IMG/VR virus record: IMGVR_UViG_3300046812_000088
Location: 1-27,866 of that record
DNA: 27,866 bases
Origin: a virus
Direction: 5' to 3' (one strand)
The notes beneath the pieces are model-generated. The model worked only from the letters and a program-made list of their open reading frames with translations. It did not search any database and was not told where the DNA came from. The position numbers were made by a program, and so were the translations under genes. Below are positions 16,595 to 27,647 of this stretch, piece by piece; within the stretch, counting starts at the first letter, position 1; the number at the start of each line of letters is the position of its first letter.

Positions 16595-19500
16595 ATGGGC
16601 GGCAAGACACAGCAGGCTTCGTCTCAGGTCACGATACCGCCGGAAGTCCTGGCGCGCTATAACGCGGTCAACGCCAATGCGCAGCAAGTGGCGCAAACGC
16701 CCTTCCAGCAGTATTCGAGCGATCCGAACGCCTTCGTCGCGCCGATGACCACGGCCCAGAACATGGGCCTCCAACAGACCGCGAACTATGCCAACGCCGC
16801 GCAGCCCGGCTTGCAGACGGCGATGGGCATGACGCAAGGCGCGATGGGGTCAGCGAATCCGTGGGATCTGAACTCCGATCAGATCAACAAATACATGAAC
16901 CCGTACACTCAGAACGTCACCAATCAAATGGGCGCTCTGATGAACCAGCAGGCCCAGACGGCGCAGTCGGGCCAACTGGGCAACGCCATCAAGACCGGCG
17001 CCTTTGGCGGCGACCGCAGCGGCATTGTGGCGGCGAACCTTCAGCAGCAGAATGCGCTGGCCTATGGCAACGCCATGGCGCCGGTGCTCCAGCAGGGCTA
17101 CAACACGGCGCTCCAGACCGCCACGGGGCAGCAGGCGCTCGATCTGCAAGCGCAGCAGGCCAACCTGGCGCGGCAGATGCAGGGTGCGGGCCAGTACGGC
17201 CAATTGGCCGGCGCGCAGCAGCAGGCGGGCCTCGCCGGCGCGCAGGCGATGATGGGCGCGGGCCAGGTGCAGCAGCAGACCCAGCAAGCGGGCCTCACTT
17301 CGCTCTACAATCAATTCCAGCAGCAGCAGTCTTATCCGTTCCAGACGGCGCAATTCATGGCGAATATTGCGGAGGGCACCGGTTCGCTGTCGGGCCAGAC
17401 GACGAACTCCACCCAGCAGGCGCCGTTCTTCTCCGACCGCAAGTTGAAGGAAAACATCAAGCGAATCGGCACCGCCAAGAACGGTCTGCCGATCCACAGC
17501 TTCAACTACAAGGATGATCCGGAAAAGCTCACCCGCCTCGGCTTCATGGCCGACGAGGTCGAGAAGAAACATCCGGAGGCGGTGGGCCTGGCCGGCGGCT
17601 ATAAGACCGTCGATCACGAGAAGGCGATGAAGAGCGCCGGCGGCAGCGTCACTGACTTCGACCAGGGTCGAGCCTATGATCGCGGCGGCTTCGACCTCGG
17701 CGGCGCTGCCAGCACCTATGACCCGTCCTGGCAGTCTGTCGCCCAGCGGCACATGGCGGGGTTGCAGGGTCAGCAGCAGGGCAGCGGCAGCACTTTGTAC
17801 GGCGGCAAGAGCCGTCACGTTCCAACGACGTCTGGCGCTCGCTACAGCCTGCCGAATGCGCCTGGCATGCCGGCGGCAAAGCCGTCAGGTCTGAACCAGG
17901 CTGTCGGAACGGCGCAGGCGACCGTGGGCCTCGGCCAATCGCTTGGCGACGCCTATAATAAGTACACCGGCAAGGATCAGCCTGCCGCCACGACCACCGC
18001 GCCTGCTGCTGGCGGTGCGCCTGCCACGCCTGCCGCGCCTGTGGTGGCGAACAAAGCGCCTGGCACACCCGATCAACCCGACGTCACATATTTGCGCCGT
18101 GGCGGGTTGGCCACCGGCGGCAGCGAGCCTGTCGTCATCGCTGCGGCGCCGCCTGCCGCCGTCGCTTCATCTCAGGGCCTCGCGGCGCCTGGCGTTGCCG
18201 ATGTCGTTACGCCGACGGCTCAGTACCAAGAAGGATTGGGCAAGGCCCAAGATGCGCAAGTGCGCGCGAACGACATTCAGCAGGCTGACCGCGACGCAGC
18301 AGCGAAGGCTGGCATGTCGTTCAAGCCCGACTGGGACAATGGTTTCCTGGCGCAAGCCGATCTGGCCCGTTCGATGGGCGTCTATGGATCGCTGAACGGC
18401 TATCACGACCCAACCCATGGCGGGTCGTATCTCGGTTTCGCGGATGGCGGCGCGGCCAGCACGGATGAATACAAAGCCCCCGATCCGAACGCCACTCAGG
18501 ACACGACGAAGCAAAACATTCCGGACGTGCATTCAACCTACAAGTTGCCCGATCCGCCCAAGCCGCCAGGCGGCAGTGGAAAGAGCGGAGCCGGCCAGGC
18601 GCTGGGCGCCGCCAAATCGCTTATGGGCCTCGCTTCCCTCATTCCCGGCGTCGGCGCCGTCACTGCTCCCCTTGGCGCCGTAATGGGCGCGGGCGAGGCG
18701 TTGGCCGGCGCCAGCGGCGGTCTGATGGTCGCTGGCCGGCGCCGCAAGCGCAAGGGCCTGGCCGCTGGCGGTCAGGGCGAGGGCGTCGATTACATGAGCG
18801 AAGGTGCGCAGGGGCGTACATACGATGACCCAGAGCAGCAAACTGCCCTTAATCTGGATCGCATTAAGGATCTTGAGGGCGAGAACAGTCAAACCGGTCT
18901 GGGCGGTAAGGGCAATAGCGTAGACAACATGAGCGAGGCCAATCAAGGTCGCATGGCCCCGAATGATACAGAAGCGCAAGACGCATGGCGATTGGAGCAT
19001 ATTCCGCGCGAAGATTTGCACAAGGAAGTACCGCCGGAAAGGTTGGCAAAACTATTCCCGCCGACGCAGGAAACGCCGCCTCCAGGTGTGCTTGGCCCGT
19101 GGTCGAGCCAATCCGCGTCTGCTTCTGTTCCTAATTCGGGCGAGCGGCTGCTCAACACGCAGCCAACTACGCGCGATGCCCAGACTGGCGCGGCGCCGGT
19201 CGAAGGGTCTGGTTTCGACAAGCCGCTCAATCTCGGAAGCGGGCAGCTATATCAAAGGCCACCGGATGTTCCGGCCACGCCTGAACAGGCTGCGGCGGCG
19301 AATGCGTTGCGCAGATCTCCTGAAGCTGCCGCGCTTGCAGGCGCGGAGGAAGCGCGTCAAGGCAAGGCGGCGGATGCTGTAGCACGGGAGAAGGATTATC
19401 AGGCGCGTCATGCGCAATCGTGGACGGATTCGCTGACGGGCGTGAAGCCTGATCTGGCGCCTGAAACACCTGAAGAAGAGAAGGCCCGCTTCGCCCGCTA

Positions 19501-21202
19501 CGATTCGACCACGCCGACGACACGCGAGGAAGCTACTGCTGGTCCGATCACGCAGCCTGGTCTTAGGCCGTCAGACGTCGCCGCGCTCGCTGACAAGCCG
19601 GCAAATCTCGCGACCGCCACGGCTCCTGCTGCGGTTCAGGCTGAAGTCCCCGCAACTCACGAAGCGGGCCTGGTGCTTCCGCCCGAAGCCAGAGGCGCGC
19701 CGCCTCCAGGGGTGACCGACGCCCGCACGTTCCCGCTGTCGCCGGCGCCGCTTGGCGGCGATGTCGCGCAGCCTGCGGCTCCTGCCCCCGTTGTGAAGCC
19801 TGCGGCCCCTGCGGCTCCCGCAAGGGTGGCGCCGACGCCTGTGGCGCATCCCGCCGCCGGCGCTGGCGTTGCGCCTGCCGGCGCAGCGGCCAGGGCGCCG
19901 ACCGACGCCAACGGCAATCCCATCGAGCAGTTCTTTGGGGGCCTCGGTCGCGGTGTGGGCGATTTCTTCCACGGCGTCGGCAACATCTTCACCGGCGGCG
20001 CCCAGCAAGTCGGCAACGTCGTCAACAGCGCGGGCCAGACGGTCAACAGGGCCGGCCAGGCTGTCGGTAGCGCGGTCAGCAATACAGCCCAGGCTTTCGG
20101 CAATGAGATTGGCGGGCGCTACAACGAACTGATGAACGGTTCGCCAAAGATGATGTCGCCTGGTGGAAGATTTAACGCCCAAGGCGTCGATCCGCGCCTG
20201 CTCAATAACATCACGGAAGCTACGAGAGGTCTGCCACAAGGTTGGCATGCGCAACTCGAATCCGGCTTCCGCAATAACGATCCGCGCCAGCACGGCAAGG
20301 GCGCGGCGGTCGATGTCGCGCTCTACAACGAGAAGGGCGAGAGGCTTGCTAATTACCAAGACCCGACCACCTTCCGCGCCTACGAGAAATTTGCACAGGA
20401 TTTCAGGGCGGCGCAGCAGCACAACAATCCCGAACTGGACAAGGCTACGCGCTGGGGCGGCTACTTCAGCGGCAAGGCGGTCCAGCCTGGTCAAAAATAC
20501 GATGCCGAGCATCCCTACGGCGCCGTCGATCTGATGCACTTCGACCTCGGCGGGCGGGAAGGCCTCGGCATGCTTGGCGGCTCGTGGGAAGGCGGCATGA
20601 CAGCGAAGCAGCATGCGCTGTTTCCCGGCGCCACGTCTGTCGGCATGGGTCAGCGCCCGTCTGGCGGATATCCGACGGCAGTCGCTACCGGCGCCGATGG
20701 CTCCAGGACCAGCGCGACGGGGCAGATCCAGCCGGGCTATCACAATGGCGTTCAGGGCATCCTCTCGCAGGAGGAATCCTTCCGCGACAAGCCGTACTGG
20801 GACAAATCTGCCGGCGGTGGGGGCGCGTGGGCTATTGGCTACGGCACTCACCAGATCGCGGGCGCCGACGGCAAGATGCGCCCCGTGCAGCAGGGCGATA
20901 CCATCACGCCACAAGGCGCCGCGCAGAATATGGTGCAGCGTCTGCAAACGGAGTTTCTGCCGAGAGCGGTGCAGAAAGTCGGGGGCCTCGATACCTGGCG
21001 CGCTCTGCCGCGCAATGTCCGCGACGGCCTCGGCTCGACCATTTGGAACTACGGCAACCTGCCTGATCGGGTCGCTTTCGTGATCCGGAATGGCGGCGGT
21101 CCCAACGAGATTGCGAACGCGGTGTTGCAACTCGGCGGCAGGACGGAGGCGGCCCGCGAGCGCCGCGCGCGTGAAGCGGCGCACATTCGTGGTGGAGGTT
21201 GA
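16595..21202 (+). CDS. 1535-residue ejection protein: S74-like, M15-like and GH24-like modules
   Basis: A putative internal virion protein. Residues 1-275 are a Gln/Ala/Gly-rich helical region (VTIPPEVLARYNAVNANAQQ, GAFGGDRSGIVAANLQQQ). A short S74-like module follows with Ser280 and Lys285 in FFSDRKLKENIK, then GLAGGYKTVD. Residues ~662-725 are a Gly/Ala-rich hydrophobic stretch ending in RRRKRKG, and ~1112-1173 a second glycine-zipper-like region; both could insert in membrane. Next is an M15-like peptidase module with zinc-ligand pattern H1233-x6-D1240 in QHGKGAAVD and His1315 in LMHFDLGG. The C-terminus is a T4-lysozyme-type GH24 module with Glu1394 and Asp1403 but Ala1413 where the catalytic Thr is expected. 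Together these suggest a protein that opens the wall during DNA entry. Long Pro/Ala linkers separate the parts. Confidence 0.75.
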   Translation: MGGKTQQASSQVTIPPEVLARYNAVNANAQQVAQTPFQQYSSDPNAFVAPMTTAQNMGLQQTANYANAAQPGLQTAMGMTQGAMGSANPWDLNSDQINKYMNPYTQNVTNQMGALMNQQAQTAQSGQLGNAIKTGAFGGDRSGIVAANLQQQNALAYGNAMAPVLQQGYNTALQTATGQQALDLQAQQANLARQMQGAGQYGQLAGAQQQAGLAGAQAMMGAGQVQQQTQQAGLTSLYNQFQQQQSYPFQTAQFMANIAEGTGSLSGQTTNSTQQAPFFSDRKLKENIKRIGTAKNGLPIHSFNYKDDPEKLTRLGFMADEVEKKHPEAVGLAGGYKTVDHEKAMKSAGGSVTDFDQGRAYDRGGFDLGGAASTYDPSWQSVAQRHMAGLQGQQQGSGSTLYGGKSRHVPTTSGARYSLPNAPGMPAAKPSGLNQAVGTAQATVGLGQSLGDAYNKYTGKDQPAATTTAPAAGGAPATPAAPVVANKAPGTPDQPDVTYLRRGGLATGGSEPVVIAAAPPAAVASSQGLAAPGVADVVTPTAQYQEGLGKAQDAQVRANDIQQADRDAAAKAGMSFKPDWDNGFLAQADLARSMGVYGSLNGYHDPTHGGSYLGFADGGAASTDEYKAPDPNATQDTTKQNIPDVHSTYKLPDPPKPPGGSGKSGAGQALGAAKSLMGLASLIPGVGAVTAPLGAVMGAGEALAGASGGLMVAGRRRKRKGLAAGGQGEGVDYMSEGAQGRTYDDPEQQTALNLDRIKDLEGENSQTGLGGKGNSVDNMSEANQGRMAPNDTEAQDAWRLEHIPREDLHKEVPPERLAKLFPPTQETPPPGVLGPWSSQSASASVPNSGERLLNTQPTTRDAQTGAAPVEGSGFDKPLNLGSGQLYQRPPDVPATPEQAAAANALRRSPEAAALAGAEEARQGKAADAVAREKDYQARHAQSWTDSLTGVKPDLAPETPEEEKARFARYDSTTPTTREEATAGPITQPGLRPSDVAALADKPANLATATAPAAVQAEVPATHEAGLVLPPEARGAPPPGVTDARTFPLSPAPLGGDVAQPAAPAPVVKPAAPAAPARVAPTPVAHPAAGAGVAPAGAAARAPTDANGNPIEQFFGGLGRGVGDFFHGVGNIFTGGAQQVGNVVNSAGQTVNRAGQAVGSAVSNTAQAFGNEIGGRYNELMNGSPKMMSPGGRFNAQGVDPRLLNNITEATRGLPQGWHAQLESGFRNNDPRQHGKGAAVDVALYNEKGERLANYQDPTTFRAYEKFAQDFRAAQQHNNPELDKATRWGGYFSGKAVQPGQKYDAEHPYGAVDLMHFDLGGREGLGMLGGSWEGGMTAKQHALFPGATSVGMGQRPSGGYPTAVATGADGSRTSATGQIQPGYHNGVQGILSQEESFRDKPYWDKSAGGGGAWAIGYGTHQIAGADGKMRPVQQGDTITPQGAAQNMVQRLQTEFLPRAVQKVGGLDTWRALPRNVRDGLGSTIWNYGNLPDRVAFVIRNGGGPNEIANAVLQLGGRTEAARERRAREAAHIRGGG
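21194..21198 (+). promoter_or_regulatory. Shine-Dalgarno deciding the start at 21205
   Basis: GGAGG ends six bases before ATG 21205. A TTG at 21199 in the same frame lies directly against this site and so is too close to be the start. Confidence 0.6.
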
Positions 21203-24934: not shown

Positions 24935-25960
24935 ATGACTGAATTTACACCAGGCAAAGGCCTTAACGTACCGGCTGCAGGGACGCCGAACTGGGACGTG
25001 CCGGTGAACACCGACTGGCGCTCCATCGATCAGGCCATTGCGGGAGTGCAATACGTTAATGCCGCTGGCTTCACCGGCAACGTCAACCTGTCCAATGCAT
25101 ATCCAACTGGTTCATCCGATCCCGCCACTACGCTGTCCTGCTTGCCCTCCACGATTGTCATTTACGGAGCTATTGCAGGGGCGGTCAATCTGGTGTTTCC
25201 AGACGGCCTTGTGGGCCACTGGATCATCAGAAACGCAACCGGCGGGAATTTTGCAGTAAACGTCGTCACGTCTACCGGTACATATAACTATATGTCTGTT
25301 CCGCAGGGTGTCTTATCTCACGTCCATAGCGACGGCCACACTTTTTATTTTGTCGGCGCGAGCGGCACCACGTCGCAGCTTGCGATGATTGGTGAGATCA
25401 AAGCCTGGTCTGGCGGCTGGGTGCCGACGCAGTGGATGGCTTGCGATGGCCGCTGGCTCGACAGGTTTGCCAACGGAGGGCAGTACGGGCCGCTCTATAA
25501 CGTTTTTGGCTTCGCCTATGGCGGCAACGGCTCCAATGCATTCGCCATTCCCGATTTGCGAGGGCGCGTGGTGGCGGGCGCAGACAACATGGGGACGCTA
25601 GGCAGCGCCAATCGCCTGAACGGGTGGGGGATGACGGCTGTCGGCGGCGTGGCGAATCTGGCCTTGACCACCGATCAGTTGCCGTCGCACACGCATTATG
25701 ATTATGGCCACGGGCACAGCGTGGCCCAGAACCCGCATCACCACACTATCACCATTCCTGACAATAGCGTCGGGGGACAGCCAGGCGTGGGCTACAGCGG
25801 CCAAGGCTGGCCATGGGCTGGAAAACCGACGACCGACGAGACTGTCCCCTTGGGGATCTATGCCGGCTACGCCAGCCTCACGAACACCGGCAACGGCAAC
25901 GCCTTCTCGATCCTGCAGCCGACGCTCGTCCTGCAATACATCATTTACACGGGCGTCTAG
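24935..25960 (+). CDS. Tail-collar domain short fibre protein
   Basis: A 341-residue protein. ATG 24935 is chosen because MTEFTPGKGLNVPAAGTPNW begins a standard fibre N-terminus and GAGG lies about nine bases upstream; the in-frame ATG at 24821 is inside the previous gene. Residues ~1-140 form an N-terminal attachment domain (PNWDVPVNTDWRSIDQAIAG). Residues ~150-215 are a phage tail collar domain (MIGEIKAWSGGWVPTQWMAC, DGR, NAFAIPDLRGRVVAGAD). Residues ~251-271 carry the His-rich SHTHYDYGHGHS and HHH cluster that in related short fibres coordinates metal along the trimer axis. The end (FSILQPTLVLQYIIYTGV) is the usual collar-type finish. Host binding or base attachment is inferred. It is the last plus-strand gene. 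Confidence 0.85.
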   Translation: MTEFTPGKGLNVPAAGTPNWDVPVNTDWRSIDQAIAGVQYVNAAGFTGNVNLSNAYPTGSSDPATTLSCLPSTIVIYGAIAGAVNLVFPDGLVGHWIIRNATGGNFAVNVVTSTGTYNYMSVPQGVLSHVHSDGHTFYFVGASGTTSQLAMIGEIKAWSGGWVPTQWMACDGRWLDRFANGGQYGPLYNVFGFAYGGNGSNAFAIPDLRGRVVAGADNMGTLGSANRLNGWGMTAVGGVANLALTTDQLPSHTHYDYGHGHSVAQNPHHHTITIPDNSVGGQPGVGYSGQGWPWAGKPTTDETVPLGIYAGYASLTNTGNGNAFSILQPTLVLQYIIYTGV

Positions 25961-26373
25961 GCGGCTCTCGTCTGGTAACAAGCGATCATGTGCTTGGGGC
26001 AGTAGATGGTCACGCCGGGTCTATCGACCGTCTCGCAGCAATAGGTGACGCCCGCCGGCGAGCGCGGATCTCCGAACGGATAACGGCAGGTGAAAGCCGT
26101 CAGGCCCATGATCGTCCGATCCTGGACAGGCGGCGCAATGGGCGCGGCGATTGTCTTCATCTTGGGCGTCCTCGGCGGTCTGGGTTTACGAGGCGCCAGA
26201 ACGCTCGCGGCCCGACTGACGTCGAATCCGCGAGCGCGGAGCCTGGATATGACACCGATGATCGCGTTCTTGGTTTTACCCAATTTTTCGCCAGCCTCCG
26301 TTCCACTGAAGCCGGCTTTCCACAGGGCCAGGATCGCGACTTCGTCGCTGTTCATTTCAGTTCGTTTGGTCAT
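25957..26373 (-). CDS. GcrA-like cell-cycle transcription regulator
   Basis: A 138-residue protein. Residues 9-50 form the GcrA N-terminal helix-turn-helix (VAILALWKAGFSGTEAGEKL, then TKNAIIGVISRLRARGF), matching the family's 'l..LW.eGlS..qIA..LGg.trNAVIGkvhRLgl'. Residues 51-90 are a Pro/Lys/Arg-rich linker. The C-terminus carries TCRYPFGDP (95-103), CC at 112-113, and CPKHMIACYQ (125-134), corresponding to GcrA's sigma-70-binding end ('C.wPiGdp....FCg......YC..H...AYqp'). In Caulobacter, GcrA binds sigma-70 and activates promoters methylated at GANTC. A start at 26373 overlaps the previous gene by 17 bases; a second ATG at 26355 is possible. Its 3' end overlaps the convergent tail-collar gene. 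Confidence 0.8.
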   Translation of the reverse strand: MTKRTEMNSDEVAILALWKAGFSGTEAGEKLGKTKNAIIGVISRLRARGFDVSRAASVLAPRKPRPPRTPKMKTIAAPIAPPVQDRTIMGLTAFTCRYPFGDPRSPAGVTYCCETVDRPGVTIYCPKHMIACYQTRAA

Positions 26374-26584
26374 CTGCCTTTTTCTCGTATCTCACGCCGC
26401 AGAACGGGCAGTATGTCGGAACGATGAGCGGCATCTTGCTGCGCATGCTGGTGATGATTTTTTCGCTCGCGATCAGCGTGGGGATCACGATCAGATGACC
26501 ATCGATAACACGAAAGGCGGTCGTCAGCCTGGCGTTGTTGTCGGCAATCATCTTGTTCATGTCGTCGGCGCAATTGCAGGTCAC
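26357..26584 (-). CDS. Small CPFCG zinc-motif phage protein
   Basis: A 75-residue protein. GTG 26584 is chosen because it overlaps the previous stop in a GTGA junction, has GGAG shortly upstream, and puts TCNCADDMN at the start, as in small phage proteins of this type known to me. Cys3 and Cys5 near the N-terminus and Cys59/Cys62 in YCPFCGVRY form a probable four-Cys metal site. Between them is a strand-rich stretch (AFRVIDGHLIVIPTLIASEK). Such proteins are frequent in phage accessory or early gene sets; function unknown. Confidence 0.65.
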   Translation of the reverse strand: MTCNCADDMNKMIADNNARLTTAFRVIDGHLIVIPTLIASEKIITSMRSKMPLIVPTYCPFCGVRYEKKADDQTN

Positions 26585-26742: not shown

Positions 26743-26819
26743 AGCGCCACCAGCATCGCAAAGGCGCACACCCCTGATACGGCGCCGATCACATACCCTT
26801 TCCAAAAGTCACCGCTCAT
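26736..26819 (-). CDS. 27-residue membrane peptide
   Basis: Reads MSGDFWKGYVIGAVSGVCAF, then AMLVALW and stop. GGGAG lies about six bases before the ATG. After a short polar start there is one hydrophobic segment with small residues (GxxxG-like GAVSG). It overlaps the upstream 126-residue gene by 11 bases and the downstream gene by 7 bases, so it sits in a chain of coupled genes. It is too short for usual gene finders. A real product is supported by the ribosome-binding site, the overlaps at both ends and the clear membrane profile; function unknown. Confidence 0.5.
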   Translation of the reverse strand: MSGDFWKGYVIGAVSGVCAFAMLVALW

Positions 26820-27189
26820 CTTGATCTCCCAAATTGTCGATGTTGAATACGGCGTTGTCGATTTTCCTGTCGAGGATCGCCAGAATCTCCGCGTATTCCT
26901 GCTGGAGCGCGAGGCGCAGCGCCCGATAGGCGTCCGCTTTGCTGGCGTACCAGGGACCGCCGGTGCCCTGGGCGTCGGTCCTGTCGGTCCTGCTGTAGCT
27001 GTGGGCGCCGGCCCTAAAGCAGCCTTGGTTGACTTTTCGGCTGTATGCGTCGAAGTTCCAGCCGGTCTGATTTAGATCGCTGGGGACCAGCCTGTGCAGG
27101 ACGAAATCGCGAAAGCGCATGGCGCGCGCTTCGTCCAATTGTTTGACGATGAGGTCGAACGCCGCTTTTTCGGCCTTGGTCATGGCCAT
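26809..27189 (-). CDS. Conserved-looking phage protein of unknown function
   Basis: A 126-residue protein coupled to the MazG-like gene by a one-base overlap (TGATG at 27189); a second ATG two codons on is also possible. An N-terminal charged helix (TKAEKAAFDLIVKQLDEARA) and a C-terminal helix (KADAYRALRLALQQEYAEIL, ending in DRKID) flank a middle with aromatic and Gly residues (WNFDAYSRKVNQGCFRAGAH, then GTGGPWY). No catalytic or metal motif is clear. It resembles small accessory phage proteins in layout; function unknown. Confidence 0.6.
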   Translation of the reverse strand: MAMTKAEKAAFDLIVKQLDEARAMRFRDFVLHRLVPSDLNQTGWNFDAYSRKVNQGCFRAGAHSYSRTDRTDAQGTGGPWYASKADAYRALRLALQQEYAEILAILDRKIDNAVFNIDNLGDQDER

Positions 27190-27647
27190 CAGCGCAGCCT
27201 CGCTCTGAACCCCAGCTTTTTGCTGGTGGCGTTGAACTTATCGACGGTCGCCCGCTTCAAATCGATGCCGGCTTTGATGGCGATCAGCGAAACGTAGACT
27301 TCCACGTCAGCCAATTCTGTCGCCAGATCGGCAACGGTGGCGCGCGAGCCATCGAGGCCCAGGCGTTCGCGCTCCAGCTTTTTGATCACGTTGCAGGCTT
27401 CGCCCATTTCGCCGGCGGCGGCGTTGCCGTAATAGGACAGATCGAGCTTGTCGCTGTTCGTCCACTCAAGCTGGCGGGCGATGTTGGCCTCTTCCAGCGT
27501 GTCATAATAGATGACAGGCTGGGCCTTTCTGGGTATGGGCTGCACCTTTTCGAGCACCCCGGTAATCAAGTTGTGGGCGACTGTTTGATCCATGCAAGCT
27601 TTATGAGCAAGCAACACGCTCATGGCTTCGATTTCTTCAGGGGTCAT
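27189..27647 (-). CDS. MazG-like nucleotide pyrophosphohydrolase
   Basis: A 152-residue protein with GAGGAA before the ATG. From residue ~58 it follows the phage MazG-like pattern: RQLEWTNSDKLDLSYYGNAA, GEMGEACNVIKKLERERLGL, DLATELADVEVYVSLIAIKA, GIDL, VDKFNATSKKLGF. The metal-binding carboxylates of the family (ExxE then ExxD) are Glu80/Glu83 and Glu111/Asp114. The expected reaction is hydrolysis of (d)NTPs to monophosphate and pyrophosphate, possibly affecting nucleotide pools or (p)ppGpp signalling. The N-terminal ~55 residues are extra to the minimal domain and of unknown role. It heads the coupled minus-strand series inside the window. Confidence 0.85.
   Translation of the reverse strand: MTPEEIEAMSVLLAHKACMDQTVAHNLITGVLEKVQPIPRKAQPVIYYDTLEEANIARQLEWTNSDKLDLSYYGNAAAGEMGEACNVIKKLERERLGLDGSRATVADLATELADVEVYVSLIAIKAGIDLKRATVDKFNATSKKLGFRARLR

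Follow-up and report, generated by a model that had tools for sequence, protein, structure and literature searches.

A divergent GcrA-family protein kept in a phage lineage, with a predicted sigma70-interacting domain and an altered DNA-binding half

GcrA is a protein that helps the host RNA polymerase to switch on genes. A gene of this kind lies in a 27,866-bp IMG/VR virus record (the window, meaning the whole stretch of DNA analysed), and the question it raises is whether a phage copy acts through GANTC sites methylated by CcrM or in some other way. Phage GcrAs have repeatedly been annotated, and an effect on the host cell cycle via CcrM methylation has repeatedly been proposed for them; no direct test of such an effect was found in the literature searched. 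The idea of a phage-borne GcrA is not new – gp222 of phiCbK is a phage GcrA homologue proposed to alter host transcription (PMC3556154), and GcrA has been reported in Agrobacterium phage Atu_ph08 (PMC6630229), a coral Rhizobiales phage (PMC11309003) and Pam5 (PMC9382816). GcrA was found in 26 Caulobacter phage records and in other Agrobacterium, Brevundimonas and Rhizobium phages, and a single pattern located 51 GcrA loci in IMG/VR.

The gene and its surroundings in the window are as follows.

25957..26373, minus strand: gcrA-like gene, 138 aa, the last gene of a leftward operon
24935..25960, plus strand: tail-collar gene (Pfam Collar, 8e-15), convergent with gcrA, the two stop codons overlapping
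26357..26584, minus strand: 75-aa ORF with a CPFCGVRYE motif, the upstream neighbour, overlapping the gcrA start
26809..27189, minus strand: conserved phage protein (phrog_28248) of the gcrA operon, 48% identical to its orthologue in the related record G010
27189..27647, minus strand: candidate MazG-like pyrophosphohydrolase of the gcrA operon (phrog_229, 4e-5; Pfam MazG below cut-off), with orthologues in the related records G010 and G011

Over its full length, the window matches positions 108449-136314 of the 138,254-bp record G003 (IMGVR_UViG_3300046559_000446; L022-L028) with 100% identity. By BLAST, G003 contains two phages, A and B, that are related (71-94% identity in matching blocks) and follow one another head to tail. 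The record is probably an assembly chimera, and the reading of it as one phage with two GcrA paralogues was rejected. Another record, G002, spans the ends of phage B and gives a closed map of 68,857 bp; phage B corresponds to G003 69398-138254, and positions 1-27866 of the window form part of it. The 94 genes called in phage B with a simple codon-usage caller include those for a DEAD-type helicase, a DUF2800/PD-(D/E)XK nuclease, an Enc34-type ssDNA-binding protein, a family-A DNA polymerase, an SU10-type portal, an Sf6-type small terminase and a C5-cytosine methylase. The first-pass annotation had called the gene phage-encoded, and this holds: the genome that contains the identical segment is that of a phage, with genes for a portal protein, a terminase, PolA and a helicase. 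A tyrosine integrase was looked for in the phage and not found. A search for a T7-type RNA polymerase gave no match, while the search controls stayed silent too. The large terminase is closest to that of an uncultured phage (58% identity), followed by those of phages of Paracoccus, Roseobacter, Aeromonas and Sinorhizobium. The best 80 of at least 448 cellular GcrA relatives are titled Alphaproteobacteria or genera thereof, a few just Proteobacteria. From the terminase relatives and the taxonomy of these 80, we infer that the host is an alphaproteobacterium.

The ORF is as it had been described from the sequence, with an ATG start, an N-terminal helix-turn-helix (HTH) and a C-terminus that reads CRYPFGDP...CPKH...CYQ, and it encodes a genuine GcrA-family protein. 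Pfam PF07750 (GcrA) matches residues 16-137 over profile positions 13-149 of 155 with 48.7 bits (E=1.4e-12), against a gathering cut-off of 26.9 bits. Two unnamed PHROGs also match the ORF, and Caulobacter GcrA (7ye1) matches the protein with a phmmer value of 3.7e-7. The earlier family call is borne out by the Pfam score, by a fold match and by the dN/dS ratio of the gene, both given below. The score against the NCBIfam equivalog for the cell-cycle GcrA and sigma70 cofactor (NF050816) is 34.9 bits, where the cut-off is 280; the phiCbK protein is likewise below it, at 82.6 bits. The phage GcrA is a divergent member of an already established kind of protein.

Three parts can be distinguished in the protein, all on the minus strand.

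26230..26349, minus strand: predicted DNA-binding domain, residues 9-48 (AlphaFold model; alignment to 79 cellular GcrAs)
26116..26229, minus strand: Pro/Lys/Arg-rich, low-confidence linker, residues 49-86, probably disordered (pLDDT 57-71; sequence)
25963..26115, minus strand: predicted sigma70-interacting domain, residues 87-137 (Foldseek match to 5yix_B; invariant columns)

The AlphaFold model, built with a 58-row alignment, has a block-mean pLDDT of about 87-94 for residues 11-50 and 91-130, with lower values between. Its DNA-binding domain has three predicted helices (H9-19, H24-31 and H35-47; pLDDT about 90) that can be aligned to cellular GcrAs, with TKNAIIGVISRL as the recognition helix. 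The top PDB match of the model is 5yix_B, the GcrA sigma70-interacting domain in complex with domain 2 of sigma70, with a TM of 0.80 by target length, an rmsd of 1.5 and 35% identity over 49 columns; its Foldseek E-value is a modest 0.038, for a target of only 48 residues. C96, C112, C125, H128 and the CRYPFGDP motif all fall in this predicted domain. At E <= 0.001 there are seven BFVD matches: six GcrA cell cycle regulators from uncultured phages and one unnamed protein. GcrA of Caulobacter crescentus (7ye1, 5yix, 5yiu) has the same arrangement – an N-terminal HTH, an unstructured linker and a C-terminal sigma70-interacting domain, of a fold similar to that predicted for the phage protein, with a C-P-G-D-C-C-H core. 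However, the two proteins are only 32% identical, the phage linker has 38 residues instead of about 60, the conserved N-terminal Trp is missing from the phage protein, as are K, H and R in its DNA-binding half, and its sigma motif has W-to-Y and I-to-F changes.

The cellular proteins used for comparison were the best 80 of at least 448 matches to a C-terminal pattern, 79 of which were aligned; an earlier cellular scan with N-terminal patterns gave no GcrA match. In the HTH, the phage protein keeps W18, G21, N36, A37, G40, R44 and L45, with T, N, A, G, R and L retained in the recognition helix. In the sigma domain it keeps C96, P99, G101, D102, P103, C112, Y124, C125 and H128; the conservation of the CRYPFGD columns is partly by construction, because the cellular set was picked with a pattern in that region. 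All or nearly all of the aligned homologues have the C, P, G, D, C, C, H core.

Eleven positions that are invariant or nearly so in the cellular proteins are changed. In the DNA-binding half, the N-terminal W common to cellular GcrAs is missing and the changes are K41V (K in 79 of 79 cellular GcrAs), H43S (H in 78 of 79), R50F (R in 79 of 79) and L47A. In the sigma domain they are H94F, W98Y, I100F, F109V, F111Y and G113C, and the first three of these could weaken sigma binding. As judged from the alignment to cellular GcrAs, the predicted sigma-binding half is well kept and the DNA-binding half divergent. The first-pass annotation expected the protein to depend on CcrM methylation supplied by the host or by a gene outside the window. 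This dependence is not to be assumed, because several residues that are invariant in the sampled cellular GcrAs, the K and H of the recognition helix among them, have been replaced.

We lean, by a small measure, towards a reading of the phage GcrA as a sigma70 cofactor in which the sigma half was kept and the DNA half diverged. Its C-terminal domain would bind domain 2 of host sigma70 on RNA polymerase, and the flexible linker would join this domain to an N-terminal HTH that selects DNA. During infection, the protein would steer the host RNA polymerase through DNA contacts other than, or looser than, methylated GANTC. Steering at such sites is the most likely action because the sigma-binding half is kept and the DNA-binding half diverged; host transcription may be redirected, and the genes controlled may be the host's own.

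The same imbalance between the halves would also fit a decoy, in which the phage GcrA, its DNA half being unable to use host sites, takes the place of GcrA on domain 2 of sigma70, so that host GcrA is displaced and the GcrA regulon shut off. We consider this clearly unlikely, as the HTH is strongly conserved in the sister phages, whose GcrAs are 84-88% identical overall and have an identical recognition helix. DNA binding therefore appears to be selected for.

The gene is also maintained, as a syntenic part of the phage family. It is intact in every relative found, it is syntenic in three phage lineages, and dN/dS among the four closest orthologues is 0.22-0.44, which indicates purifying selection. 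The divergence from cellular GcrA might be accounted for if gcrA were the remnant of a captured gene that now decays or moonlights and plays no part in regulation, but in light of the intact copies, the dN/dS and the synteny this is highly improbable. More distant relatives are found in the records G010 and G011, which match 57 and 52 phage B genes, respectively (tblastn). The genes of their GcrAs (L131 and L132) adjoin the tail-collar gene in the same place and are convergent with it, and the two proteins also lack the K and H of the recognition helix. Their identity to the window protein is 35-36%, and they are far more diverged than the gene 66 capsid (88-89%) or the large terminase (63-66%) of the same phages. 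The gcrA gene evolves faster than most of its neighbours. In a quick tree, with long branches and limited support, the window GcrA clade has the proteins of G010 and G011 as its sister group (support 92) and falls outside the cellular clades.

Other phage GcrAs are less close. The phiCbK gp222-type protein is also a phage-encoded PF07750 member, but it is 31% identical, belongs to a large siphophage of another kind, keeps the K of the recognition helix and falls in another clade of the tree. Rhizobium phage RHph_X2_24 (29% identity to the window GcrA) and the Agrobacterium phages OLIVR4, Milano, 7-7-1 and Atu_ph08 likewise have GcrA-like genes of alphaproteobacterial phages, but these are on separate branches or were not reached by tblastn with the window protein.

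No CcrM-like methylase had been seen in the window, and the absence extends well beyond it. PF01555, the CcrM-type N6-adenine methylase family, had no match in G000, in G001-G009 (including the closed 68.9 kb map) or in G010 and G011, so that the complete map and nine related records are without a CcrM partner for gcrA. The only methylase found in the phage genome is the C5-cytosine DNA methylase (L025:18814-19818, Pfam 5.6e-36), which possibly serves counter-restriction. N6/N4 MTases are present in 7 of 22 other GcrA-bearing viral records (G014, G016, G017, G020, G024, G025 and G029); the four ORFs inspected by eye resemble ParB-MTase fusions or general phage MTases and are not evidently CcrM.

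Strong promoters of the sigma70 type (TTGACA-N17/18-TATAA) are present in the phage and are conserved between phages A and B. The set is small and consensus-based. A near-consensus family is found in the early region (L025:19815; L026:2201, 2874, 12059 and 12125), and its three plus-strand members have in common an element near to CGAACACG in the spacer and an imperfect inverted repeat over the -10 box, TGTCC-TATAA-GGG(G/T)(A/T)CA, also conserved in phage A, which looks like an operator. A candidate late promoter is located upstream of the terminase genes (L026:13146-13247) in a near-perfectly conserved block of ~45 bp; a 12-bp perfect palindrome, CTTGCCGGCAAG, lies over its -35 box and occurs once each in A, B and G6. 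These elements raise a further reading, that GcrA was turned, in this phage lineage, into an activator of the phage's own promoters, tethered to sigma70 and independent of methylation, with a DNA half that reads a phage element such as CTTGCCGGCAAG or CGAACACG / TGTCC-TATAA-GGGGACA; we regard this as very doubtful.

The first-pass annotation had also suggested that the protein could drive phage promoters. There are 71 GANTC sites in phage B, 4 of them intergenic where 4.4 are expected, and the site statistics give no support for binding that depends on m6A-GANTC. Neither the recognisable sigma70 promoters nor the conserved late-promoter candidate has a GANTC between its boxes, and nothing here points to action on phage promoters via GANTC; one GAATC is located 28 bp upstream of one -35 box. 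Given the rarity of GANTC, the lack of intergenic enrichment, its absence from the recognisable promoters and the loss of cellular-invariant residues from the DNA-binding half, canonical driving of phage promoters via methylated GANTC is unlikely. Of the earlier interpretation, the GcrA family, both end domains and the lack of a CcrM-type gene are supported, and control of phage promoters via methylated GANTC is not supported.

The scarcity of GANTC was itself considered as a signature of GcrA function. The window has 31 sites, compared to a shuffled mean of 108, and depletion is strongest for GAGTC, at 0.20 of expectation in phage B and 0.73 in cellular loci. This was rejected: with 151 and 101 sites, the GcrA-carrying phages G010 and G011 of the same family have about twice the density of the window lineage, so depletion does not go with GcrA. 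Nor are the sites better conserved, with an A/B conservation of 0.45 compared to 0.38-0.61 for other gapped palindromes.

A mimic of the canonical kind would bind GANTC methylated by host CcrM and, with sigma70, boost the promoters of the GcrA regulon (replication, division), giving a replication-competent cell, as proposed for phiCbK gp222 (PMC3556154). Membership in PF07750, the sigma-domain fold, the phiCbK precedent and the recognition-helix residues that are retained all agree with this. It is nevertheless rather unlikely – residues that do not vary in the sampled cellular GcrAs are gone from the DNA-binding half, the equivalog score is far under its cut-off, and GANTC in the phage shows neither intergenic bias nor extra conservation, a point that bears on phage targets only.

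The lineage keeps the sigma-binding half, while its DNA-binding half and GANTC landscape speak against the usual CcrM story. It is a clean test case for a phage GcrA as a lever on the host cell cycle versus a generic sigma70 adaptor, and its gcrA is a stable, syntenic gene of a phage family and not a one-off capture.

Three other features of the phage were observed. Several hexamers have zero copies in the 68.9 kb of phage B: CGATCG (106 expected, both strands), GTCGAC (96), CGGCCG (97), CCGCGG, GGGCCC, AGCGCT, GAATTC and GCACGC. Phage A retains GTCGAC and CGATCG, and this looks like strong lineage-specific restriction-site avoidance. At 16595-21202, the window encodes a protein of 1535 aa whose Peptidase_S74 (endosialidase chaperone) domain occupies residues 280-330, a long way from the C-terminus where this domain usually sits. 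Lastly, an AT-rich intergenic region of 363 bp (L026:9799-10161), which adjoins gene 36 (958 aa, no Pfam match), has many GGGGTTTTA / AAACCCCTAA repeats and is likely a replication origin.
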